From: a virus
IMG/VR virus record: IMGVR_UViG_3300005914_000059
Location: 1-28,327 of that record
Length of the DNA stretch: 28,327 nt
Reading direction: 5' to 3' (one strand)
Shown: positions 3,808-26,726 of the stretch, piece after piece
Position numbering within the stretch: position 1 is the stretch's first letter
Layout of the letters: every line of letters begins with the position of its first letter
Notes under the pieces: generated by a model
What the model was told of the DNA's origin: nothing
The model's input: only the letters and a program-made list of their open reading frames with translations
Database searches by the model: none
Position numbers and translations under genes: made by a program

Positions 3808-5407
3808 TTACGTAAATACAGTCCCTGGAGGACAGATTGGTACTGGCAACGCACAAGTGTTTGGGGCTAACCCTTTGGCTACGCAGTTCGCTAATCAATT
3901 AGGAGACTTGCGTAAACGCCAAGAGTTCGAGGCGCAGAAAACAGCAAAAGCATGGAAAGATAATCAGCTCGCAGCGTCCAAAGGACGGCTGTGGGCATCT
4001 GACATGGCAGGGCTTGAGAAAGACTTCATCGACCGAGGTATCAAGTTGAAGCAAGGCGGTATCGACCCTTACGGCACCTCGCAAGAGGCGCTCGATTACC
4101 AACGTGACCAACGATACGTAGAGGCGCAGCAAGGATTCCGAGAAGCTAAGGAAAGAGATTACACAGCAGCACTTGCCAAGATAAGCGACAAGACTGACCC
4201 TAAGAGCATCAAAGCTCTGAACGATTATTTCTTGAATACTAAGTTAGTCGATGCTTTTGCGGGTAATCAAGCGATTCCACAGTTGAAGGATAGGTTTGAC
4301 GCTGCAGGAGCCATCAAAGGCTTACGTGCACCAACTATGGAGTCTAAGCGTACCGCTGAGGGCATAACCAAAGAAATTACAGAAGTGAATACGCCCGAAG
4401 CGGAAAACATGGTGCTTGGCGCATTGCGTAACACCATAGGAGGTATGGACTACATTAATAGCGAACTGACTTCTGGTTTTACTGTGCCTGATGTTAAAGG
4501 ATTTGATAAAACTTATCAAGGAAACGCAGATTCGCTCAAAGCTGAAATAGCAGGTAACCCTCCTCTACAAAAGCAATTAGCCGAACAAGGCATTGCCCCC
4601 GATTCGCAACTTATGCAAGAGTACATAAGCGACCAGGCGTATAAGCGTACTGAAGCTAAAAAGAAATTCGATTCGGAGTTACAAGCCTTAGTGGCTATGA
4701 CCGCTACGGGGGTTAAGACTGAGAATTTAGAAACTCCTTATCGTGACCCTAACGAGATGACTGCTGCTCAAAAAGATGCTTCGACAAGAGGATGGGCTAA
4801 CCTAAACAGATTAAAGGCTAAAGATGCGGCAGACGCATCGGGTGAGCAGCAAGATCCCCCTAGCGATTTGACTTTTTCTTACGGGGTTACAGATCCGAAA
4901 ACAGGTGTACGCCCTTCTTTTACGGGACTAGGTACGGTTAAGCTTAACTCGACAAAGATGAATATGCATGGCGAGAAAGTGATAGATACCACCACAGGCA
5001 GACCTACAAAGACTGCCAACGCATCTAGCGAATTTGATTTGGTAGAATTAACGCACGCACCCATCCTTCTTAAAAGTACTACCATAACTAAGCCTGATGG
5101 TACTAAAGAGATATTAGAAGCTGGGTCAGTGGTTCAGGATAGTTATGCCGAGGCTAACCCTAAATCGGTAGAATATAAGAAAGTAGGGGTGGTGCAAAAG
5201 GATAGGGGTAAGTCCGACCCGCTAACCTATTACATCGACGCAGATTTGATACCTACCAACACTATGTCTAAAATATCGAGGGGTTTGTATGATAAGTTTA
5301 TATCAGATAAATCTTATGAGCGAGGGGTTGGAACAACTAGACCTGCTTCAAGTGGTAAAATGTCAAATGCGGATTTTGCCAAGTATCTAAAATCCAGAAA
5401 TTTATAA
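3797..5407 (+). CDS. Internal virion / ejection-type protein, mid-size, helical
   Basis: A 536-residue protein whose ATG lies inside the end of the preceding gene (11 nt overlap). It begins with a Gly/Ala/Asn-rich segment and is then largely helical and charged (LRKRQEFEAQKTAKAWKDNQ, ALDYQRDQRYVEAQQGFREAKERD). A more beta-like stretch around residues 350-480 includes SFTGLGTVKLNSTKMNMHGEK. The C-terminus (SGKMSNADFAKYLKSRNL) is a short helix of the kind seen at the ends of virion-packaged proteins. Position two of three in the ejection cassette suggests an equivalent of T7 gp15. No enzymatic motif is visible. The role is inferred from order and composition. Confidence 0.6.
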   Translation: MAASYVNTVPGGQIGTGNAQVFGANPLATQFANQLGDLRKRQEFEAQKTAKAWKDNQLAASKGRLWASDMAGLEKDFIDRGIKLKQGGIDPYGTSQEALDYQRDQRYVEAQQGFREAKERDYTAALAKISDKTDPKSIKALNDYFLNTKLVDAFAGNQAIPQLKDRFDAAGAIKGLRAPTMESKRTAEGITKEITEVNTPEAENMVLGALRNTIGGMDYINSELTSGFTVPDVKGFDKTYQGNADSLKAEIAGNPPLQKQLAEQGIAPDSQLMQEYISDQAYKRTEAKKKFDSELQALVAMTATGVKTENLETPYRDPNEMTAAQKDASTRGWANLNRLKAKDAADASGEQQDPPSDLTFSYGVTDPKTGVRPSFTGLGTVKLNSTKMNMHGEKVIDTTTGRPTKTANASSEFDLVELTHAPILLKSTTITKPDGTKEILEAGSVVQDSYAEANPKSVEYKKVGVVQKDRGKSDPLTYYIDADLIPTNTMSKISRGLYDKFISDKSYERGVGTTRPASSGKMSNADFAKYLKSRNL

Positions 5408-5410
5408 GAA

Positions 5411-8400
5411 ATGCCAGACTTAAAAGAGCTATTAACAGAAGCGCATAAAATGGGAGCAAGTCAAGCACAACTTGACACTATTGTAGAACGGTACAATCAA
5501 AAAAAAAGCGACGTTGGCAACGATTCACCCGATGCACCGAGTACCTTAAACTCATTTGGGGGTGGTTCAAATCCTTTCCAAAGTTCCCAAGTAGATACTG
5601 AAATACCAACGGTATTAAGTGAAAAGGCAAAGCTAGACAATATTCGTTCCAAGAATATTGCAGGTAAGTTCAAAGTAGATACACAACTACCCGAAAGCCA
5701 ATTAGGTTATCCAATAGGTAAAATAGGTAAAACTACTATTGATGTACCCTTAGAGAATAAAGTATTCAGAGAATTTGCTGCACCTACCATCCAAAGAGAA
5801 TTTGGGGTTGCCGATATAGACGTAACACAGAACAAGGTAGGTGAAAGCCTTACACGAAAGGGCGGTTTCCAAGACGACATACAGGCGACTGAATATGTGC
5901 CACAAGAACCAACACAAGAGGATGTAGGCTATTTAGAAAGCCTAAAAAACTCAATAACCAATGTTGGTGTTGGACTTCAACAGTTTATCCCTAATACACA
6001 AATTGCACTTGAAGGCACTCTTAAAACTTTATTAGGTAAAGATTTAGGTACTGACGCATATTGGCAACTAACAAAAGGCGATCCTGAATTACACAGAGCA
6101 GAATCCTATCAAAAATTAGCCGAATTAGAACCACAATTTAAGCAAACAAGGGGGTTAGTCGAAAGTGGTCAAAACTTTGATGTGTTTGGTCTTGCAGTAG
6201 CAACAGTAGACGCGGGGCTTTCTTTGGTTAGAACAATGGTTACATCAGTACCAACGGCAGGGTTAGGTTTATATTCTGATATGGTTGGTGGCAGTGTTGC
6301 TTCGTACAATCAAGAGAAAGCAAAGCAAATGGGCCTTAGTGTTAGGGAATTGTATGATAGAGGGGAGAATGACTTTGTTGTCCCTGCTACAATAGGTACA
6401 ATTGCTGCACAAATGGAGAAAATAGGATTGAAAGGTGTTAGTAATGCAATTAATAAAAAACTTGTTGGTAGTTGGCTTAAAAAAACCGCTGTATTTGGTG
6501 TAGAGGTAAATAAAGAAGGCTTAACCGAATTGGTTCAGACAGGATTAGATGAAGCAAATAAGTCATTAGCACAGGGTAAAGGTGCAGTACAATCAAGCAA
6601 GGATGCTGCCTCAGCTATGTTATCTAAGAAAGGTCTTGAAAGCTATTTAATGGGGGTTGTAGGGTCAGCAGGTGCAGCAGGTGCAGCAGGAGCGGGTAGG
6701 ATAGCCAAGTCTATGATAAGCCCTAAAGCTAAAGAAAAAGTTCAAGCGCAGACAGAAACTATTGAACGCTTAAAGACAGAGTTAGAAAACCCTAATTTAT
6801 CCCCTACTGCACAAGAGTTTGTTGCAGCTCAAATCCAAACATCGGTTGCTGATGTAGCCACAGAAGTTGAAACAGATGCAACACTTTACGAAAATCTAAG
6901 TACCGAGCAGAAGAAAGAAGCAGACAGGCTGAATGGCGAAATTGAAAAATCAGAAACCGTTATTAACGATCCTGCGCTCTCGGAAGAAACCAAAGCCGCT
7001 GCGGTAGTTGAGAACGAACGACTGAATACCGAATTAGAAGCTAAACTAAATGAGAAGTCTGCTGAAGTAAAAACTCCAAAAGTAGATACCCCCGCCAAGA
7101 CGGTAGACGTAGCTAAGGTAGCACCCATGTCTTATACCGAAGACTCGGCAGAACAAATAACAAATATAGTTAATAGCATACCAGATATTAAAACTACGGA
7201 GGGTTTACTTAATAGCACAAAAGGAACTCATTACGAGGCGTTAGCTAAAGCATTAGGCGGTTACCTACAAAATATAAAAACATCTATTGTACCCAAACTT
7301 ATAGATAAATTTGGTATTAGAGAACATGGCGGGCTGTTTGAAGACGGTGTAATAAAGCTAAAAAAAGGCGAAGGCATAACAACTTTTTTACATGAAGCAT
7401 TGCACGCTGTCACATCAGCTAAATTATTAGCCTGGACACGTTTTAATCAATTAAATAGATATAATTTAGAGGGTGGGAAACCACAACAATCATTTAAAGA
7501 ATTAGGATTGCATGATTTATCTAAAAAAGACATTGAGGCAATAAAAAACTTAGAAAGAATCTATGAAGAAAGTAAATTAAAAGCACATGAATTTTTAGGT
7601 GGTGGTAAAGCCGATAGAACTAAAGGGTTTTATGGTTTTACTAATATAGATGAATTTATTTCAGAGGCTTTTACTAGCAAAGAATTTCAAACTTTATTAA
7701 AAAATATAAAAGGAGAAGGTAAGACATCCAATTTATTTAAAGATTTTTTAGATAGTTTGGCTAAACTATTGGATATAAAAGACCCTACTATTTTAGATGA
7801 TATATTTTACCATACTGAAGTCTTGATGGATGGTAAAAAACAAACGCAAGTTAAAGACTCAGCAGAACAAATCACCAAAGAAGCTAAGCAAGCCGAAGCG
7901 GAGATGGCTAAGAACAATGACCCTGCTGAATTTGAGATTAAGATGGAGGCTTTGGATAAGCGGGCTCAGGCGTTGCCTAAAACAGGGGAAGTTATTTCTG
8001 AAATTAAAAATACAATTGAAGATGAACAAGCAATTACTATTTCGCCTAATGCGAAAGAATTACAATCCAAGGCTAACAACAATGAAGAATCGGTGGTACG
8101 TAACGAAGCTGGTACGACTAGCAATGCTACTGAAACCGTTACACGAGAAGTAAAACCAACTGCTGAGGTAGCAAAGCCAGAACGCACAGGCGATGCTACC
8201 GAGAACGAGATTAAGATGGAGGCTTTGGATAAGCGGGCTCAGGCGTTGCCTAAAACAGAAGCCGAGGTAGGAGCATTAAAAGATGTAGAGAGTACCGCTA
8301 AAGCATTGGATAGTGTTGAATTAGGTGATAAGTTTAAATCACAAGATACTGAAAGTGTATTAGATAGAAATAATTTTTATAGAAAAGCACAAGAAATGTT

Positions 8401-19105: not shown

Positions 19106-19113
19106 TAGGGCAT

Positions 19114-19521
19114 TTAAGAAACACGAAATACGATAGACTTTAAATACTCAATTTGTTGAACCATACACGCTTCAACAGATGTTTTACACCCATCTTTATC
19201 AGGTATATTTTCAAATATATCTTCAATTTCTTTATCGAAAGCAAAAAGCCCAACAGTTGTATCTTTATGATGCTCCAAATCTTTTACATATTTATTATAG
19301 CCAATATCTTTTAAATATTGTTCGTGTTCCTCTTTTGAATTTATACCTTCGGGCATACATTTTTTGCGCTCGTAATTATCCGACACTTCTTTAATAATAT
19401 CGTCTATAATTTCATTGAACGGAGCATAAATAATATTTTCTCCTGTTGTACCTGTGCTCGAAGCTTCAGCGATTGTGCTACCTTCAAAAATTTCTAAAAT
19501 TATCTTTTTTAAATCTTCCAT
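19114..19521 (-). CDS. Small acidic protein in a cassette-like unit
   Basis: Leftward gene of 135 residues. A longer frame to 19608 would start in the structured leader; I prefer the ATG at 19521 (MEDLKKIILEIFEGS) because it follows an AT-rich leader and begins a normal amphipathic helix. The protein is acidic and mostly helical (FNEIIDDIIKEVSDNYERKK, KEEHEQYLKDIGYN, FAFDKEIEDIF). No family is recognised. It is bounded on its 3' side by the repeat shared with the cassettes at 23220 and 23995, and on its 5' side by another copy of the boundary motif at 19665. Its codon use is A/T-rich. It is probably an accessory gene acquired at the junction between the lysis and early modules. Confidence 0.5.
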   Translation of the reverse strand: MEDLKKIILEIFEGSTIAEASSTGTTGENIIYAPFNEIIDDIIKEVSDNYERKKCMPEGINSKEEHEQYLKDIGYNKYVKDLEHHKDTTVGLFAFDKEIEDIFENIPDKDGCKTSVEACMVQQIEYLKSIVFRVS

Positions 19522-19681
19522 TGTAATTAAAATAAACGCCCTATAAGATACGCTATAAAAAAGCAGGGGCTTGGTCTGTAATTGAAGCGGTGTGCATCTA
19601 TTTGTCATTTGTGGTAGGCTGAAAGGGTGTGCATCTTAATCCCTGCCTTCTTATAGCGTCAGCCGTTATAAGCAATAAAAA
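19522..19681 (-). other. 160-nt noncoding stretch with repeats and stem-loop potential
   Basis: No convincing gene on either strand. Contents: two direct copies of GGTGTGCATCT (19589-19599 and 19626-19636); complementary GCAGGG (19563-19568) and CCCTGC (19641-19646) which on the minus strand are followed by a T-run (19556-19562); and a boundary motif GTTATAAGCAATA at 19665-19677. Read leftwards it lies upstream of the 19521 start. It could be a 5' leader with a terminator or attenuator, a small RNA, or the recombination end of a cassette. Confidence 0.4.
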
Positions 19682-21239: not shown

Positions 21240-22622
21240 TTATCCCCAAAGCCAGTCATCTTTTTCTCTTCGGAACGCTTCGGCTTCTTCTTTGAACGCT
21301 TTAAGGGCAGCTATTAGCACGTCTTGTGTCATTGTTTTATCTACCAGACGGGCGGCCACCGTTTCTTCGATCGTGCCCTGCGTAATCAGGTGTGTGTTAA
21401 CAACCGACTCTGGTTGCCCTTGTCGGTCTAACCTTGCTACGGCCTGTTGGTATAGTTCTAGTGAGTTAGGTAAACCAAACCAGATGATGTGCCAACCTCC
21501 GAACTGTAAGTTCAATCCGTGCCCAGTCGATTTGGGGTGTGCCAGTAGCACCTCAATCTCTCCGCTATTCCAACGGTCGATTTCCGCTGAGCCTTCCAGC
21601 TTCACTACGTTCTTAATCCTTTGTTTGATCCGCTCGATGTCACTAATGAAGCAGTAGAATACAATCACAGGCGCACCGTTTAGGCTCTCTATCATTTCCT
21701 CCAATGCGTCTAACTTCGCATCGTGTACAACGTGGTAATTATGGTCTGCATCATAAACGGCACCGTTACAGAACTGTAATAACTTAGTATAAAGAGCCCC
21801 AGCATTGACTGCCGTAATCTCACCTTCCGTGAGTTGTAAGACTGCGTCTCGTTTGAACGCATCGTACTCATCCATGTTAGGGAGGTTTATTTTATGGGTC
21901 ACGTCGATAACAGGTTTCAAGTCCAGCCAGTCCTCTTTACGCATCGAGATGCAGATGTCGCTTATTTTAGCTTGGATGGACTCCTGCGCTCCTGGTCTTG
22001 GTACGTACCGCCTCGTATAATCGTTCTTGACAAAATATCTGTTGCGGAAACCTTCCATTGTCGTGCCTAGCCTTTCCCCTTGGTCAAGTAGGTACATGGG
22101 CGCCCACAGGTCGAGCAGCCCATTCGGGGCAGGTGTTCCGGTCAGGTGAATCATGCGCTTAATCTTCTTATGCTTCAGCACCGATTTCATTTTCTTGAAG
22201 CGGAGCGAGTCGTGCGACTTGAACGATGTCGATTCATCCAGAACCACCATGTCGAATGGCCAGAACTCTCCGCATAGATTAACGAGCCAAGCGATATTGT
22301 CTCTGGAAATTATCCATATATCTGCCTCTGCGGTGAGTGCCTTCTTTCTCTGCGCTGCGCTGCCTATTACTTTGGAGATTTTGAGATGGGAGACGTGTTC
22401 CCATTCCGAAATTTCATCGCTCCAAGTCTTCTCGGCTACCAAACGGGGGGCTATGATTAGAGGTTTGCTGATTTCGCACCAGTCTAATAAGTCATTAATT
22501 ACGGTCAGTGTAGAAATTGTTTTCCCTAAACCCATACTCAGCAGCAACTGACAGAAAGGTGTATTGTGGGCGAAAGTAATAACTCGCTCTTGGTATAGGT
22601 GGAAATTATCTCTTGTTTTCAT
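21240..22622 (-). CDS. SNF2-type helicase / translocase
   Basis: A 460-residue superfamily 2 ATPase. Walker A is GLGKT (31-35), motif II is DEST (129-132), motif III TGTP (161-164). The second RecA-like domain contains STGHGLNLQFGG and ends in QAVARLDRQGQ (from about 393), with arginines R397 and R400 as candidate arginine fingers. This is the SNF2 pattern seen in phage replication regions, where such proteins translocate on DNA. It starts with a 4-nt ATGA overlap with the HD gene. The length is normal for the phage type. Exact role (replication fork, recombination or chromatin-like remodelling) cannot be told. Confidence 0.85.
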   Translation of the reverse strand: MKTRDNFHLYQERVITFAHNTPFCQLLLSMGLGKTISTLTVINDLLDWCEISKPLIIAPRLVAEKTWSDEISEWEHVSHLKISKVIGSAAQRKKALTAEADIWIISRDNIAWLVNLCGEFWPFDMVVLDESTSFKSHDSLRFKKMKSVLKHKKIKRMIHLTGTPAPNGLLDLWAPMYLLDQGERLGTTMEGFRNRYFVKNDYTRRYVPRPGAQESIQAKISDICISMRKEDWLDLKPVIDVTHKINLPNMDEYDAFKRDAVLQLTEGEITAVNAGALYTKLLQFCNGAVYDADHNYHVVHDAKLDALEEMIESLNGAPVIVFYCFISDIERIKQRIKNVVKLEGSAEIDRWNSGEIEVLLAHPKSTGHGLNLQFGGWHIIWFGLPNSLELYQQAVARLDRQGQPESVVNTHLITQGTIEETVAARLVDKTMTQDVLIAALKAFKEEAEAFRREKDDWLWG

Positions 22623-23113
22623 CTGTTGAAAAGGATGTTAAATATACTTACGAATTTATCTTTTGCGAGTGCAGGTTCCCAACACCACACAGTATCGTTC
22701 CTCAACATCAATGTGTCCCATTCAAACTCCAACAGGACTTTATCTGCGGCTTTAGTCTCCTCACTCAGAATAGGATCGAACCCAAACTTATCTGCAATTA
22801 CCCGTAGTAAATTATCTTCTATTTCTTTGTACCCCGTGAGTCTTTTCTTGATCGGGCTCGGAATATCGAGCAGATAGGCCTCTGCCGAATCGTGCATAAG
22901 GGCTTGTAAGGTTCGGCTCATATCTGCTACATTAACACTGTGCTGAGCCACCGAGTAAAACTTTGGCAGGTGCCCCCCGAATCTACACTGCATCGACAAA
23001 GCATGCGCAATGTCCTCTATGCAAATCATTTCTGGTGTGGGGTCAAATACGTTCATGTAAAGCCCTGTAAATGTCCGAATGCAATTCGGTTCGTATAAGT
23101 TTTCTTTTTTCAT
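22619..23113 (-). CDS. HD-domain phosphohydrolase (YfbR-like)
   Basis: A 164-residue HD protein. Candidate metal ligands: H58 in YSVAQHSVNVA, H74-D75 in LMHDSAEAYLLDIPSPIKK, and D124 in KAADKVLLEFEWD. The pattern resembles YfbR-type 5'-deoxynucleotidases, which cut dNMPs and could help control nucleotide pools during phage replication. A short frame upstream (LVRLINDKLKLLGYL) ends in an ATGA overlap with its start, suggesting it was once coupled to an upstream gene. It overlaps the helicase by ATGA. Confidence 0.75.
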   Translation of the reverse strand: MKKENLYEPNCIRTFTGLYMNVFDPTPEMICIEDIAHALSMQCRFGGHLPKFYSVAQHSVNVADMSRTLQALMHDSAEAYLLDIPSPIKKRLTGYKEIEDNLLRVIADKFGFDPILSEETKAADKVLLEFEWDTLMLRNDTVWCWEPALAKDKFVSIFNILFNR

Positions 23114-23187
23114 AAGTAGCCTAATAATTTAAGTTTATCGTTAATTAACCGCACCAGCAGGTAAGAATTGTTATCATTTATGGCCAC
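23110..23187 (-). other. Possible C-terminal remnant of an interrupted gene
   Basis: An open frame of about 26 codons, ending NNSYLLVRLINDKLKLLGYL and then TGA in ATGA overlap with the HD gene. It has no ATG and part of it (YLLV) is encoded by CCAGCAGGTAA, which recurs at 23970-23980 in another cassette flank. It may be the tail of whatever gene formerly lay between the nuclease and the HD gene, or may be chance. Confidence 0.3.
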
Positions 23188-23215
23188 AAGCTAACATTAT
23201 TGGTTCGCTTGTGGC
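23183..23215. repeat. Perfect 9-bp inverted repeat in the cassette flank
   Basis: GCCACAAGC at 23183-23191 pairs exactly with GCTTGTGGC at 23207-23215 around a 15-nt loop. It is followed at once by ATGGCTACAAGCGATTAGTT (23221-23240). On the minus strand this is downstream of the stop at 23251. It could be a terminator for the cassette gene or a folded recombination site; no T-run follows. Confidence 0.6.
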
Positions 23216-23219
23216 AGGT

Positions 23220-23241
23220 TATGGCTACAAGCGATTAGTTA
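23220..23241. repeat. Cassette 3'-flank repeat, copy 2
   Basis: Contains ATGGCTACAAGCGATTAGTT; differs from 19084-19105 by one base. It ends 9 nt before the stop codon of the leftward gene at 23251, that is, just downstream of that gene. Confidence 0.8.
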
Positions 23242-23250
23242 GGCGTAATG

Positions 23251-23541
23251 TTAAAGACCCCTCAACATCCATTCGTTATAATCATTACCAAATCTATTTA
23301 TACCAACTCTAATGATGTTATCAAATGAAACCAACCATTGAGACCAAACATCAAAATTCATAACTAAAGCTTCGTTTGTTTCAGGGTAAATCTTTTCTAC
23401 TCTACCACAGTTAATTTGTAGATTTGATGATTTTACCCATACAATGCTACCCTCTTTGATAACATCAGAAACACTACGCATAACAGCACCTATATTCAAT
23501 TGCTGGGCTTCTGCTTCATTCAAGTTTTGTTTTTCTAACAT
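23251..23541 (-). CDS. Cassette gene with LNIGAV N-terminal tag, 96 aa
   Basis: A 96-residue protein beginning MLEKQNLNEAEAQQLNIGAV. The tag NLNE-QLNIGAV is shared with the gene at 24012 although the rest is unrelated. The body (GSIVWVKSSNLQINCGRVEKIYP, EALVMNFDVWSQWLVSF) looks like a small beta-barrel, possibly SH3- or KOW-like in spacing; this is only a structural guess. Its leader carries AGCTATATTTAGTTGCGG (23578-23595 on the plus-strand numbering). Likely an independent acquired cassette; no function can be assigned. Confidence 0.5.
   Translation of the reverse strand: MLEKQNLNEAEAQQLNIGAVMRSVSDVIKEGSIVWVKSSNLQINCGRVEKIYPETNEALVMNFDVWSQWLVSFDNIIRVGINRFGNDYNEWMLRGL
23482..23526 (-). repeat. 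Shared N-terminal coding tag, copy 1
   Basis: 45 nt encoding NLNEAEAQQLNIGAV. It matches 24285-24329 (NLNEPQNPQLNIGAV) at 39 of 45 positions by direct comparison, and the flanking parts of the two proteins are unrelated. Confidence 0.85.
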
Positions 23542-23577
23542 AATTCTGTTTTTATTTAAAGTTTAGTAATTCTAATT

Positions 23578-23595
23578 CCGCAACTAAATATAGCT
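23578..23595 (-). repeat. Shared cassette leader, copy 1 (AGCTATATTTAGTTGCGG)
   Basis: 18 nt identical to 24382-24399. It lies 37 nt upstream of the ATG at 23541 and 7 nt from the boundary motif at 23603. TATATTTA inside it differs by one base from the Bacteroidota -7 box TAnnTTTG, so it could be a promoter carried with the cassette. Confidence 0.8.
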
Positions 23596-23633
23596 TCAAA
23601 ACGTTAGCAGTAATACTACATTCCATCTCCGAA

Positions 23634-23933
23634 TTAAAGTATCAAATCCATATCTGGTGAATTACATTTAAGGGCTTCTTCAACATGCTCAAAATTAATC
23701 ATATCCCTAAATGGATTGTCATCAGTATATTTTATTTCAGCATCGACTATTTGTAATTGCTGGACATGAATAATATGCACAAGCAATCTAATAGCATCGT
23801 TTTTATCCATTTTATCTAATTGTAATATTGCTTGATGCTTGTGTTCGCAATACATAGGGTCATCGCCTTGAACCCCTACATGATTAATACCCATAACCAT
23901 CTTTGCTATTTTCTGTAATTCTTGTTTTTCCAT
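23634..23933 (-). CDS. Hypothetical cassette-block protein, 99 aa
   Basis: Begins MEKQELQKIAKMVMGINHVG; helical, acidic and polar throughout (KHQAILQLDKMDKNDAIRLLVHIIHVQQLQIVD). It lacks the LNIGAV tag. It sits between two tagged cassettes, with a boundary motif at 23603-23615 (18 nt past its stop), and its leader follows the CCAGCAGGTAA flank sequence at 23970-23980. No family recognised and no membrane segment. Confidence 0.45.
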   Translation of the reverse strand: MEKQELQKIAKMVMGINHVGVQGDDPMYCEHKHQAILQLDKMDKNDAIRLLVHIIHVQQLQIVDAEIKYTDDNPFRDMINFEHVEEALKCNSPDMDLIL

Positions 23934-23994
23934 TTTGTTATAAAATTAAATTTAGTGCTGATAATCCACCCAGCAGGTAACAGCGTATAAAAGA

Positions 23995-24014
23995 TATGGC
24001 TAAGCGATTAGTTA
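23995..24014. repeat. Cassette 3'-flank repeat, copy 3
   Basis: TATGGCTAAGCGATTAGTTA; lacks two bases relative to the copies at 19084 and 23220. It overlaps the stop codon of the gene at 24012. Confidence 0.75.
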
Positions 24015-24332
24015 GCGGCAATAGAACATAAATCCTGTCTGAACTTTATTACCGCCTTCCAAACCTATTATTTCTCCTTCGATGCTATCCGGGTTGTGAA
24101 CTGTTTTTAATGGTTGTGTTGCAATCATTGGTTCACTCTTAACTTCAATTCCGTGTGCTTTTAATCGTTCGGTTATATCTTTAGGGTCTTTACAACCTGC
24201 AACACCAACTTTGCCGCCTAAATTAAGTTCGGATATCATTGATAAAATCATAGTATTAGTTTTCCCTAATAATCTACCGCCACTAACGGCACCTATATTC
24301 AATTGCGGGTTTTGTGGTTCATTCAAGTTCAT
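24012..24332 (-). CDS. Cassette gene with LNIGAV tag and P-loop-like motif, 106 aa
   Basis: Begins MNLNEPQNPQLNIGAVSGGRLLGKTNTMIL. GGRLLGKT fits the Walker A pattern GxxxxGKT (about residues 18-25), followed by a helix (MILSMISELNLGG) and a strand (KVGVAGC) as in P-loop folds. The protein is only 106 residues and has no Walker B visible, so it may be a truncated NTPase, a binding-only domain or a coincidence. It carries the same leader and N-terminal tag as the gene at 23251. Confidence 0.5.
   Translation of the reverse strand: MNLNEPQNPQLNIGAVSGGRLLGKTNTMILSMISELNLGGKVGVAGCKDPKDITERLKAHGIEVKSEPMIATQPLKTVHNPDSIEGEIIGLEGGNKVQTGFMFYCR
24285..24329 (-). repeat. Shared N-terminal coding tag, copy 2
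   Basis: 45 nt encoding NLNEPQNPQLNIGAV; partner of 23482-23526 (39 of 45 identical). Confidence 0.85.
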
Positions 24333-24381
24333 AGTTTCTAATTTAATTTTGTGAATAATTCAAGTTTTGTGCTTCGTAAGT

Positions 24382-24399
24382 CCGCAACTAAATATAGCT
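24382..24399 (-). repeat. Shared cassette leader, copy 2 (AGCTATATTTAGTTGCGG)
   Basis: 18 nt identical to 23578-23595, 50 nt upstream of the ATG at 24332 and 7 nt from the breakpoint motif at 24407. The interrupted dam frame terminates inside it (TAG at 24388-24390). Confidence 0.8.
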
Positions 24400-24459
24400 G
24401 CATTCCGTTATAGGTAGTATTTCTTTTGCCATCCGATTTTTACTTCCCATGTATTTCAT
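24388..24459 (-). pseudogene. dam: Truncated DNA adenine methylase (dam-like), N-terminal remnant
   Basis: A frame from ATG 24459 reads MKYMGSKNRMAKEILPI, then TECSYI and a stop. The first 17 residues are the standard opening of D12-class N6-adenine methyltransferases, the SAM-binding start with the conserved GSK. The gene is coupled to the nuclease gene before it by a 4-nt ATGA overlap, as expected for a real former gene. Its sequence breaks at the boundary motif GTTATAGGTAGTA (24407-24419) where the cassette leader begins. The rest of the gene is not in the window. It is almost certainly inactive. Confidence 0.65.
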
Positions 24460-24746
24460 AATAAATGCCAAAAATATTTGTCTATAAAAATAGGTATGTC
24501 AGTTTCAAAACGAATTACTTCGTGCCTTTGTCGCATCGCTATGCTATCACGCTGGAATATTTTCTGCAAAGGGCTTAAATCCTTATTGCCGTTCTTAATC
24601 TCCACGTACACTGTCACTCCGTCAGGCACCATAACAATCTGGTCTGTAGCGCCTCTATTAGAGGGAGAAACGAATTTATACGACCTGCCTCCTGCGATAG
24701 CTACTGCTTTTTTAAATTTTGCTTCTAATTTTGCTTCTGGTCCCAT
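24456..24746 (-). CDS. VRR-NUC domain nuclease
   Basis: A 96-residue protein of typical single-domain VRR-NUC length. The pattern KFVSPSNRGATDQIVMVPDG, VYVEIKNGNKDLSPLQKIFQ has the D (TDQIV), ExK (EIK) and Q (LQ) expected of the PD-(D/E)XK fold. Such phage nucleases act on branched DNA or replication intermediates. Its end overlaps the start of the truncated dam gene by ATGA. It is followed upstream (in its direction of transcription) by a C5-methyltransferase, 1 nt away. Confidence 0.8.
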   Translation of the reverse strand: MGPEAKLEAKFKKAVAIAGGRSYKFVSPSNRGATDQIVMVPDGVTVYVEIKNGNKDLSPLQKIFQRDSIAMRQRHEVIRFETDIPIFIDKYFWHLL

Positions 24747-24747
24747 G

Positions 24748-25389
24748 TTAGCTGTTTATCCAATCGTTCCAATCATTCTGATCATTCCGATCATCCGTTA
24801 GTACTTCCTCGGCACACCTTAGTATGTGTAAACCCATTTCTGGCACTACGCAATTACGCAACACTTTTCGTTTATCTATGCCTGTGTAGCTGTCCAAGTC
24901 GAAGCCTAGTTTTTCAGATAGAAACTTCCTCTCTTCAGGTTTTTTGCAAGTTTCTAACTTCTCGAACTCCATAGGCTCTATGTGGAAATTACACCAAATG
25001 GCGTGCCGGTGTAGTATTGTACTCGGCTTTATCAAAGGGGCGTAGTAAGGTATTACATTCTCAATTACCCACAATCCTTTATACCACTTTTGCAATAGGA
25101 TTATCTCGGCGTACAAAGTCATATCGGGGTAAACGATTACTTTATTCATTGTCCGTAACCTACTATGTGTAGGGCAAGGAGGAGATGCCCAAATAATATC
25201 AAACTCTTTAAAGTGGTCTAGTAGGTATTGGTGGGCGTCCCCTACAATTACAGTATCGTTTGGGAAGTGCTCTTTGTATATAGCTGCTATATTAGGGTCG
25301 TACTCTACGGCTGTAATTTCGTACCCGTCACCCCATAGTTTTCTGTTACCCCCTATTCCTGCGTATAGATTCAGTATTTTCTTTTTCAT
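24748..25389 (-). CDS. C5-cytosine DNA methyltransferase, short form
   Basis: A 213-residue methyltransferase. Motif I is LNLYAGIGGNRKLW (6-19), motif IV contains SPPC with catalytic C72, and motif VI is IENV (109-112). A late motif RNCVVPEMG acts like motif X. It lacks a long target recognition domain, so specificity may be minimal or come from a partner. The C-terminus has a repetitive tail DDRNDQNDWNDWINS, whose DNA recurs at the end of the neighbouring 443-codon frame. It probably protects phage DNA from restriction; no cognate nuclease is visible. Confidence 0.8.
   Translation of the reverse strand: MKKKILNLYAGIGGNRKLWGDGYEITAVEYDPNIAAIYKEHFPNDTVIVGDAHQYLLDHFKEFDIIWASPPCPTHSRLRTMNKVIVYPDMTLYAEIILLQKWYKGLWVIENVIPYYAPLIKPSTILHRHAIWCNFHIEPMEFEKLETCKKPEERKFLSEKLGFDLDSYTGIDKRKVLRNCVVPEMGLHILRCAEEVLTDDRNDQNDWNDWINS
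24760..24776. repeat. Short repeat shared by adjacent 3' ends, copy 1
   Basis: CCAATCGTTCCAATCAT, identical to 25407-25423. It encodes the WNDW part of the C-terminal tail. Confidence 0.85.
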
Positions 25390-25394
25390 CTTCT

Positions 25395-26726
25395 TTAATT
25401 ATCTACCCAATCGTTCCAATCATCCGTTAACAAATTCGTTCCACTCTTTTGCTTTTCGCCACAAGTCCCAGAAGGCAAGTTCGGCGGTTTGTTCGACCAC
25501 TGAGTTGCCAATGGCACGGTGAAGATCCTCTGTAAAGTTGTACCCATTAATTGAATACTCCACGCTGGATTCAACCGTGCGGGGCTCTTCCCATTCGTGC
25601 TGATAAATTCCTTGACCTGCGGGAAATCGGTGTTCATAACGACAGCATTCGGTAGCTGACTGAGGTGTGGCCTTTCCTTTGAGTCGAAATGTTCCTGCGA
25701 GTTCGCCCCCTTGTAGTCTCTGGTTGCTGGTGTCGGCCAATTCTTCATCTCTCCGTACACTGCTGCATCCCTCATATTTGAGAAGCTGCTCCTGCCCGGT
25801 CTTGTTTCGTTCATCTCCTTGTCTATCGCTTTGTCCGTCTTTGGGGGCAGTTGATCCATCGTTGTTGGTGTTGGCCAATTCTTCGCTGCATTGCTCAGTC
25901 CTTGCTGTTTGCTCTTGGCACTCCTTCTGTCTGAGCAATCTGGTGTTGGCCAATTCAGTGCTTGGTGAGTCAGAGATGTATTTTTCTTCATTCCGTCTGC
26001 CGTGTAATAAGCAGTCCCTTTCCACACCCATCCTAACTCTTTTGCTCTCTCCGGTGATATCTCTCCTTGTTGTGTTGTCGCAGGGGTCGCCCAGTTCAAA
26101 ACCTTGCTGTTCAAGTCTATCGTCCATCCCTTCTCCTCTTTGCGTTGGTAATTTCCCGACTCTGGTAGGTCTAGGCTCCGGAAGTCCCGGCTCTGCGGAG
26201 TTGGCCACCCTAATTGCGAGGATGAACAATCTTTCCCGCCGTTGAGGAGCGCCAATTTCTTCCGCTGAGTATATTCCTGCCTCAACGAAGTAGTCCATTT
26301 CTTCCAGTTCACGTTTAACCACGTCGAACCCGAGTGTAAGGTGACCTGCGACATTCTCAAAGAAACACCATCCGGGTTTAATAGTTCTGACGTGTTCTCG
26401 AATGAAGGGCCACAGGTGACGTGGGTCATTTTCTCCTGCTCGGTTACCAGCCAGGGAAAATGGCTGACAAGGGTATCCGCCAATAATTCCATCAATGAGT
26501 CCTCGAAACGGTTCCGGATTGAAGGTTTTAAGATTCGTCCAGATAGGTGCTGGAGCCACCAGACCCGCTTCCATTGCAGCAAGAAGGTTTTCCACGATAA
26601 AGGCTTCGATTTCCACATAAGCACAGGCTCTAACTTCTCGAAATATTCTTTCAAGTCCTCTTTCGATTCCACGTATTCCGGGGCATAGACTGATGATAAC
26701 GGGTGATTGTTTGGTAAAATCCACAT
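25395..26726 (-). CDS. Overprinted 443-aa frame, WPTP/LNPxW-LMG type
   Basis: An ATG frame that begins right after the upstream stop (26727-26729) and runs through the whole methyltransferase gene in another frame. Motifs: WPTP at 174-177, 259-262, 284-287 and 330-333; WATP at 212-215; TMDQLPPK at 288-295; RPGRS at 309-313; HLSQLPNAV at 354-362; LNPAW at 385-389 and LMG at 393-395. From memory this set (WPTP ... LPPK ... RPGRS ... LNPxWVExLMG) marks a phage protein family found with C5-methyltransferases. The first 150 residues look like a shadow of the enzyme. Its C-terminal WNDW tail matches the in-frame tail of the next gene. Translation is unproven. Confidence 0.45.
   Translation of the reverse strand: MWILPNNHPLSSVYAPEYVESKEDLKEYFEKLEPVLMWKSKPLSWKTFLLQWKRVWWLQHLSGRILKPSIRNRFEDSLMELLADTLVSHFPWLVTEQEKMTHVTCGPSFENTSELLNPDGVSLRMSQVTLHSGSTWLNVNWKKWTTSLRQEYTQRKKLALLNGGKDCSSSQLGWPTPQSRDFRSLDLPESGNYQRKEEKGWTIDLNSKVLNWATPATTQQGEISPERAKELGWVWKGTAYYTADGMKKNTSLTHQALNWPTPDCSDRRSAKSKQQGLSNAAKNWPTPTTMDQLPPKTDKAIDKEMNETRPGRSSFSNMRDAAVYGEMKNWPTPATRDYKGANSQEHFDSKERPHLSQLPNAVVMNTDFPQVKEFISTNGKSPARLNPAWSIQLMGTTLQRIFTVPLATQWSNKPPNLPSGTCGEKQKSGTNLLTDDWNDWVDN
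25407..25423. repeat. Short repeat shared by adjacent 3' ends, copy 2
   Basis: Second copy of 24760-24776. Here it lies at the end of the 443-codon frame (DDWNDWVDN) and mostly past the stop of the large methyltransferase. Confidence 0.85.
25420..26724 (-). CDS. C5-cytosine DNA methyltransferase (Dcm-type)
   Basis: A 434-residue methyltransferase with a GTG start at 26724 (no nearby in-frame upstream start). Motif I is SLCPGIRGIERGLERI (12-27), unusual because the normal F-G-G core is CPGIRG. Motif IV GGYPCQPFSLAG has catalytic C86; motif VI FFENV (121-125); motif VIII QRRERLFILA (161-170); motif X HRAIGNSVVEQTAELAF (402-418). Between 171 and 401 lies a polar, repeat-containing target-recognition region with recurring VAN, LANT, LADT elements. 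It is probably an anti-restriction or host-mimicking enzyme. The same DNA carries a second long frame (25395-26726). The upstream gene ends 3 nt away. Confidence 0.88.
   Translation of the reverse strand: MDFTKQSPVIISLCPGIRGIERGLERIFREVRACAYVEIEAFIVENLLAAMEAGLVAPAPIWTNLKTFNPEPFRGLIDGIIGGYPCQPFSLAGNRAGENDPRHLWPFIREHVRTIKPGWCFFENVAGHLTLGFDVVKRELEEMDYFVEAGIYSAEEIGAPQRRERLFILAIRVANSAEPGLPEPRPTRVGKLPTQRGEGMDDRLEQQGFELGDPCDNTTRRDITGESKRVRMGVERDCLLHGRRNEEKYISDSPSTELANTRLLRQKECQEQTARTEQCSEELANTNNDGSTAPKDGQSDRQGDERNKTGQEQLLKYEGCSSVRRDEELADTSNQRLQGGELAGTFRLKGKATPQSATECCRYEHRFPAGQGIYQHEWEEPRTVESSVEYSINGYNFTEDLHRAIGNSVVEQTAELAFWDLWRKAKEWNEFVNG

Follow-up and report, generated by a model that had tools for sequence, protein, structure and literature searches.

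The 28,327-nt stretch analysed here (the window) is IMG/VR record IMGVR_UViG_3300005914_000059, a linear virus record of 28.3 kb, and the same region is present in a 50.8-kb twin record (IMGVR 3300007074_000017; G027), in which the 12 proteins compared were all 100% identical. On the minus strand of the window a C5-methyltransferase gene is followed by a second C5-methyltransferase gene, a nuclease-like gene, a 17-codon start of dam (a D12 adenine methylase gene), three small open reading frames (ORFs), an HD-domain gene and a gene for a SNF2-type helicase (Table 1). A first-pass annotation, made from the sequence alone, had described the three small genes as a cassette array that interrupted dam, and most of what it had noticed was found again: the frame MKYMGSKNRMAKEILPI-TECSYI, closed by a stop codon, starts at 24459 and is coupled to the nuclease stop by an ATGA overlap; its similarity to dam stops at 24408, where the first cassette begins at 24407; the three small ORFs are all present; and both neighbouring methyltransferases match PF00145. 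Sequence comparison indicates that these small genes are very probably mobile cassettes belonging to an integron-like capture system that phages carry, with units composed of a recombination site of the attC type and a gene-bearing body. Arrays built in this way were found in many IMG/VR phage records; their attC structure, polarity, recombinase and mobility had escaped the first-pass annotation.

Table 1. Cassette array, dam junction and neighbouring genes of the window (positions in nt; + and −, strand).
Feature	Position	Strand	Basis
dam remnant, 17 codons (MKYMGSKNRMAKEILPI) and one base, up to TAA| at the crossover	24408..24459	−	dam similarity
Strict R-box GTTATAGGTAGT at the dam junction, 1 base from the cassette and 11 from dam (codons 14-18, antisense)	24407..24418	+	box search
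attC_A, type 1, TAACGGAATGCAGCTATATTTAGTTGCGG...CCCGCAATTGAATATAGGTGCCGTTA; carries ATG and tag MNLNEPQNPQLNIGAV of the next ORF; first three bases (TAA) are dam	24284..24410	−	predicted single-strand fold
Cassette body 1, start GTTAGTGGCGGTAG, end CTATTGCCGCTAAC	24011..24287	−	8/11 tested positions self-complementary
Cassette 1 ORF, 106 aa, starts inside attC_A, reads through GTT	24012..24332	−	ORF list
attC_B, short hybrid/degenerate site TAACTAATCGCTTAGCC...ATACGCTGTTA	23978..24014	−	sequence
Cassette body 2; ORF 23933-23634 (99 aa) begins within the body	23603..23981	−	ORF list
attC_C, type 1, carries ATG and tag MLEKQNLNEAEAQQLNIGAV	23481..23606	−	repeats, fold
Cassette body 3, start GTTATGCGTAGTGT, end ACATTACGCCTAAC	23238..23484	−	end pairing
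Cassette 3 ORF, 96 aa, starts inside attC_C	23251..23541	−	ORF list
Distal array end: TAACTAATCGCTTGTAGCC site, strong hairpin, then TTACCTGCTGGTGCGG	23149..23241	−	sequence, fold
Second, separate cassette: attC hairpin TAACGGCTGACGCTATAAG...CTTTTTTATAGCGTATC, body TTATAGGGCGTTT...AAATGCCCTATAAC with self-complementary ends, gene 19114-19521	19107..19670	−	sequence
C5-methyltransferase	25420-26724	−	PF00145
Second C5-methyltransferase	24748-25389	−	PF00145
Nuclease-like gene	24456-24746	−	
HD-domain 5'-deoxynucleotidase-like gene	22619..23113	−	ATGA at its start
SNF2-type helicase	21240-22622	−	

The first and the third small gene share a leader and a tag, as had been noted before, with repeats D1 (76% over 92 nt) and D2 (71% over 63 nt). 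The conserved ends of leader and tag form the arms of a single hairpin (TAACG…GCAGCTATATTTAGTTGCGG … CCGCAATTGAATATAGGTGC..GTTA), and leader and tag are best read as opposite ends of a single attC-type site, the mobile unit being attC plus body. The 18-mer GCTATATTTAGTTGCGGA of this leader, which we call type 1, was found in 37 viral loci, not all independent (some share a contig or belong to the window's twin); at 35 of these it runs on into a similar coding tag (…PQ.PQ[LF]NI..V) and diverges after GTT, locus L027 having another right arm and tag and L024 being a chance match. A search with the tag pattern retrieved 51 loci, many of them identical. Type 1 is one among many sites, since the bodies of the arrays are separated by many unlike attC sites of one plan, the interiors of which (79 interiors) cluster near 40, 65, 80 and 118 nt. 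The two arms of a site covary: arms scored 17.8 with their own partner and 11.8 with a swapped one (67/79 sites, 5000 permutations, maximum 12.8), and type-1 sites alone showed no difference (19.67 vs 19.70, 12 sites), as expected for one family. For attC_A, the site ahead of the first cassette of the window, the predicted fold as single-stranded DNA (ssDNA) closes TAAC/GTTA and both arms at −13.2 kcal/mol, a value given without shuffle control. Very short sites of 40 nt with a common loop around CGTTTTAATG recur in L008, L013, L015, L029, L039 and L064 and in Polaribacter phage P12002L.

The second signal lies in the bodies, which start with GTTANNNNN[AC]GT or close to it and end in the near reverse complement of their own start, with one recurrent G/T wobble. 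In 37/39 chosen bodies with enough downstream sequence, the ends paired at 9.2 of 11 positions with their own partner vs 6.5 when swapped (2000 permutations, maximum 7.1). A scan that is independent of the leader detected 193 wobble-bearing bodies in 563 kb of (overlapping) array loci vs 1 in one mononucleotide shuffle, and five in 185 kb of other loci, namely one in L040, which is the window's phage, three in L056, where an array was then recognized, and one in L054. After de-duplication, at least one body was present in 53 loci and at least two in 36. Unit borders fall, by sequence comparison, at AA|C, or G|TT on the opposite strand (the bar marks the crossover point). As a separate observation, three bodies of the window (24014, 23241 and 19107, minus strand) end in TAACTAATCGCTT..., with right halves that are unlike each time; the fuller form of this end, TAACTAATCGCTTGT(A/G)GCCATA, occurs elsewhere in one further viral contig, L081, and a search for the site TAACTAATCGCTTGTRGCCATA returned three loci in all, two of which are the twin record.

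Pairs of loci that share the same body suggest that the attC that travels with a gene is the one lying 5' of it: 17 of the 23 pairs keep the upstream attC (identity of at least 0.80) next to a different downstream site (at most 0.56), four keep both, two neither and none the downstream site only, although this result is biased and its pairs are not independent, most loci having been fetched by their type-1 upstream site. The 17 pairs represent six cassette families, with 10 pairs from one family; free of this bias are only the comparison of L064 with L079, which are near-identical phages, and that of the Freya isolates discussed below. L020 and L026 hold two copies of one cassette, on one contig and with different downstream neighbours. 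The classical layout, in which a body travels with its downstream site, was considered and rejected, since it disagrees with the same-body pairs, with the Freya isolates and with the lack of an attC after the last body, ahead of the recombinase. That the mosaic arose by homologous recombination between conserved leaders, without any site-specific recombination, is highly improbable: similar bodies often have upstream sites that are 80-100% identical, which is enough for exchange, but unlike attC sites stand side by side in the arrays, the junctions of Freya units agree to the exact base although their attCs differ, covariation is seen in R boxes as well as in arms, and dam shows no similarity to the leader.

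Cassette units are present or absent among the cultured Freya phages, of which Freya_10, a Polaribacter phage, has an ‘integrase’ of 35% identity preceded by two such bodies. Nine pairwise comparisons covered seven of the ten Freya records, with Freya_3, Freya_4 and Freya_7 and the Danklef phages left out. Seven of the nine pairs differ by a single insert at AAC|ACCCCTATAAC (AAC|ACCCC), 46 nt before the ATG of the recombinase gene, with identical flanks in the compared stretch. These inserts measure 842 nt (Freya_1 vs Freya_2; two cassettes), 902 nt (Freya_2 vs Freya_5), 472 nt (Freya_5 vs Freya_6) and 307 nt (Freya_9 vs Freya_10) and, where inserts were taken whole and not as single cassettes, 2891 nt (Freya_5 vs Freya_9), 3198 nt (Freya_2 vs Freya_8) and 3793 nt (Freya_2 vs Freya_9). 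In the comparisons of Freya_8 with Freya_9 and Freya_10 the 902-nt unit was absent from Freya_8 at an inner position, and the 307-nt unit was additionally present in Freya_8, relative to Freya_9, at the AAC|ACCCC point. All of these differences may represent gain or loss, in either direction. Because the isolates differ by inserts of cassette units, nearly all of them at one point, the Freya cassette system looks active. The Freya integrase has previously been read as a sign of temperate potential in a paper whose main text does not use the word ‘integron’ (PMC8776804).

In 11 records (G011 and G025 partly by eye) a recombinase ORF, or what remains of one, follows the last body on the strand of that body, with L056 (partly by eye) as the twelfth. 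The distance from body end to the start of the match is 61-108 nt in eight records, 5 nt in G039, 385 nt in G025 and 761 nt in G011, the last body of the latter two being below threshold yet visible in the sequence. All 58 bodies scored in the 11 records, of which G009 and G028 are near-identical phages, lie on the strand of the recombinase, and none on the opposite strand. The enzyme, of approximately 265 aa, is XerA-like and lacks the IntI-specific insertion: its profile aligns with XerA 4a8e (Pyrococcus abyssi type) from end to end, whereas the match to Vibrio IntI4 (2a3v) falls into two pieces, with a gap where IntI has extra residues and the phage enzyme is about 48 aa shorter. The best match of the Freya enzyme is also 4a8e, again end to end. 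The residues R, K, HxxR, H and Y are invariant in the eight enzymes aligned, and five of them score highest, among curated families, with NF040815 (‘XerA ... tyrosine recombinase/integron integrase’), at a level below the cut-off of that family. In several phages a similar AT-rich stretch (TAACTA-N-TATATRTA) follows the last AAC; it is a candidate attI. Among relatives on plasmids, the best-ranked ones (H86-H97; about 50% over 82%) are mostly tyrosine recombinases of Acinetobacter, and one from an uncultured bacterium is named TnpF.

Instead of the phage enzyme, XerC/XerD of the host might move the cassettes, in a manner like dif-module exchange. The 11-nt boxes starting with TTA presumably resemble Xer arms, the phage recombinase is itself XerA-like, and the record of the window's phage has no recombinase; on the other hand, the recombinase stands past the last cassette in 12/12 records where it was found, and the Freya inserts adjoin the recombinase gene. 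We consider a host enzyme unlikely. A slightly less probable alternative still is that phages acquired ordinary cassettes of bacterial integrons via a bacterial IntI, with no phage-specific system. The attC-like sites, the G|TT crossover and the methylase cargo would all fit with this, as would the facts that attC clusters in phages have already been published and that one attC site of Polaribacter phage P12002L, a phage with five bodies of the present kind, is a substrate of IntI1 (PMC9892861), a result that also counts in favour of the capture system proposed here. Against it stand the 37 viral loci of the type-1 18-mer vs two matches, neither of them tagged, in a genome collection (a search of bacterial genomes with that one exact 18-mer), the XerA-like nature of the recombinase and its place beside the array wherever it was found (12/50 records), the common orientation of the 58 scored bodies toward it, and the Freya inserts next to it.

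The sites are in part coding sequence. An ORF extends over half of the body length in 153/158 bodies with full upstream sequence; 78 of these 153 ORFs have their ATG within the attC, 64 of the 78 in the frame of the GTT codon. With type 1 left out, these numbers are 48/122 and 34/48, with many unlike tags ending in V. The frame at the crossover is usually GTT-ANN-NNY-MGT (V-x-x-S/R), and the ORFs stop at the TAA of the end box (51/153), 12 nt before it (36/153) or elsewhere (66/153). Site and body thus tend to stay in register with each other, but in about half of the cassettes the ORF begins within the body. Among the Freya units, that of 307 nt has an ORF starting in its attC, in frame with GTT, and that of 472 nt has one ORF before and one after GTT. 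The tags encoded by attC are presumably translated. In the window, no Pfam family was found for the ORF of cassette 1, and Pfam gave only one non-significant family match for that of cassette 3. A Pfam search (E 0.001) of 99 cassette proteins of at least 75 aa pointed to putative functions of the cargo: N6_N4 methylase (three), MT-A70 (two) and, once each, Lar restriction alleviation, DUF3850, DUF4326, ASCH and four other families, most proteins being without a family.

The mechanism that we propose builds on the AA|C borders, the long imperfect attC hairpin, the R'/R''-like pairing of body ends and the presence or absence of units upstream of the recombinase, as they appear from sequence comparison; the part assigned in it to the recombinase and to single-stranded attC is putative. 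The XerA-like recombinase would fold attC as single-stranded DNA, excise cassettes and insert them at its own attI-like site, AAC|TANTATATRTA or AAC|ACCCCTATAAC, and would act in trans for phages without the enzyme in their record, such as that of the window. The genes read toward the recombinase, so that the travelling attC lies 5' of its gene; roughly half of the scored cassettes take their ATG and a short N-terminal tag from it.

Apart from the bias of the same-body pairs, a number of observations weigh against this interpretation. The IntI profile TIGR02249 matched 12 of the 50 array records, many of which are fragments, with E of at most 0.01 and in no case above cut-off; since all 14 control genomes also match it below cut-off, this label alone means little. 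It had no match in the 50.8-kb twin, in a search outside which the window record (G000) lay. The recombinases of G026 and G039 are remnants, and that of G042 has an early TAG. Relatives of the enzyme in 445 plasmid records extend the family beyond the known arrays, and Cellulophaga phage Ingeline_1 has a 38% relative with no such body in the surrounding 10 kb; body scans of TJE1 and of the first 50 kb of PH101 found none either. The type-1 tag gave weak matches only among cultured phages (10 Flavobacterium phage records, E 8, identity below 60%). In the window itself, the minimum-energy ssDNA fold of attC_C differs from the attC hairpin (it is partly decayed) and the ends of body 2 are unpaired (by eye); because of this the array of the window may be partly dead, and excision at attC_B and body 2 seems doubtful. 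Finally, the integron of Vibrio phage Va_90-11-286_p16 (MK672802) has 9-11 paired bases at three cassette ends (by eye), and these pairs rule out the idea that self-pairing ends of 14 nt are special to the phage system.

The 17 residues at the proximal end of the array are identical at 15 positions to the intact dam proteins of Croceibacter phage P2559Y (E 2e-3) and Cellulophaga phage phi19:1 (E 7e-3), in agreement with the earlier recognition of MKYMGSK as a D12 methylase start. The nucleotide alignment extends to CCTATAA, after which the next base is the C of the cassette in the window and a T in dam of P2559Y, and the end of the similarity coincides with the crossover point TAA|C. The first-pass annotation had proposed to search the junction at 24407, and there lies one of the two strict R-boxes (GTTANNNGYMGT) of the window, both strands searched; the other is at 23484 on the minus strand, at the start of body 3. 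The dam side reads TTATAGGTAGT on the opposite strand, which matches the R-box consensus. PF02086, the D12 methylase family, was above cut-off in 1/21 records searched, and neither the window record nor G027, which are among the 21, had a match. We consider the derivation of this frame from dam well supported by these comparisons: a cassette would have entered dam at an R-box-like secondary site in codons 14-18, and the remaining dam would then have been lost.

The frame could instead encode a short leader peptide or match dam by chance, in which case dam was never broken here. No relative with an intact dam in this slot was found, and in L083, which matches the backbone best (61% identity for primase, 51% for methyltransferase, 54% for nuclease and 74% for helicase), the slot holds one 184-aa ORF and no dam, array or HD gene; the match to two intact flavophage dams, in amino acids as well as in aligned nucleotides, the ATGA coupling to the nuclease gene and the end of the similarity at a strict R-box nevertheless make this unlikely. 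The interruption of dam by a cassette thus stands as far as the remnant ending at the crossover and the lack of a D12 methylase are concerned, and it falls short in two respects that count against it. A sister phage with an intact dam in the slot was not found: the comparison that had been suggested, with relatives that keep dam between nuclease and HD genes, yielded none among the 80 nuclease relatives kept of 130 found, a regex scan of whose fetched flanks gave the MKYMGSK frame in the window's twin only. Moreover, loss of the remaining dam goes beyond a simple insertion. The HD gene was said to resume the backbone after the array, and it does start with an ATGA overlap; it may, however, not belong to the backbone, since a relative in L056 (63% aa identity, 5001-5519) sits within a cassette array, with the recombinase at 6160-7008. 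The HD gene may therefore have arrived through a later exchange.

Two further features of the window lie outside the array. Two long ORFs on its minus strand, 25395-26726 (443 aa) and 25420-26724 (434 aa), overlap nearly completely, and the second frame over the C5-methyltransferase gene (MWILP...WPTP repeats) is also open, with a similar start, in L083 (2733-4004), which suggests an overprinted gene. An exact direct repeat of 52 nt (7934-7985 and 8207-8258) lies within a gene for 2614 aa.

How should such a system be classified? Its attC-type sites have hairpin arms and paired R boxes, and the Freya isolates differ in which cassettes they carry at a single attI-like point next to the recombinase gene, as in an integron. 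Its enzyme does not have the additional domain around patch III that is specific to IntI and a defining integron trait (PMC9668308), and its order is not that of gene followed by attC with genes reading away from intI. The system works like an integron and yet is not filed as one because these two defining traits fail. The window array itself, with attC sites at 24410, 24014 (degenerate), 23606 and 19670 where at least two are required, fits the definition of a CALIN, an integrase-less cluster of attC sites.

On a wider scale, it seems fairly probable, though clearly less so than the cassette nature of the three genes, that phages of Bacteroidota possess a gene-capture class of their own: a mirror-image integron with a XerA-like recombinase that lacks the IntI domain and an attC that is a translated 5' module, with tag and gene travelling together as a single portable reading frame. 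Such a class would maintain a rapidly changing arsenal of methylases, restriction alleviation and many small proteins of unassigned family, and some ‘integrase’ genes would be cassette recombinases and not signs of lysogeny. The known carriers among cultured phages infect Polaribacter (Bacteroidota). In the literature searched, outside which lie most subscription journals and all preprints, we found no mirrored phage integron layout, no coding attC of this kind and no XerA-like cassette recombinase. If this reading is true, phages would run their own gene-capture platform, beyond ferrying bacterial cassettes; attC would be recognized by an enzyme without the domain held necessary for it, and a recombination site would be a protein-coding module; the presence of an ‘integrase’ gene alone would be no proof of a temperate phage; and the Freya phages on Polaribacter would offer a cultured system in which capture could be watched directly.

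In a classical integron, attC follows the gene, the enzyme is IntI and the genes read away from intI. The integron of MK672802, our control, likewise has pairing cassette ends (by eye) and an array beside a divergent tyrosine recombinase gene, but most of its genes point away from the recombinase, whereas those of the phage arrays point toward it. XerA-like tyrosine recombinases of the 4a8e type match the phage enzyme over their full length, and to our knowledge no cassette arrays are known for XerA. In the reverse-orientation integrons of Spirochaetota the array lies downstream of intI, whereas the phage array lies upstream of the recombinase, with its genes running into it. Common to both is that recombinase and cassette genes are on one strand (PMC9668308). 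The CALINs of virulent phages (Qi et al., 2023; PMC9892861) share with the window system attC sites and methylase cassettes in phages; they were reported without an integron integrase, and the parts of that paper considered here, which list the Vibrio phage of MK672802 among temperate phages with integrons, do not mention polarity, a coding attC or a recombinase of the XerA type. Finally, ORF-11 in attI1 (PMC8876359) is likewise a site with a start codon that aids translation of the next cassette; it lies in attI and acts mainly through translational coupling, as described there, whereas the phage attC would instead encode the N-terminus of the cassette protein itself.

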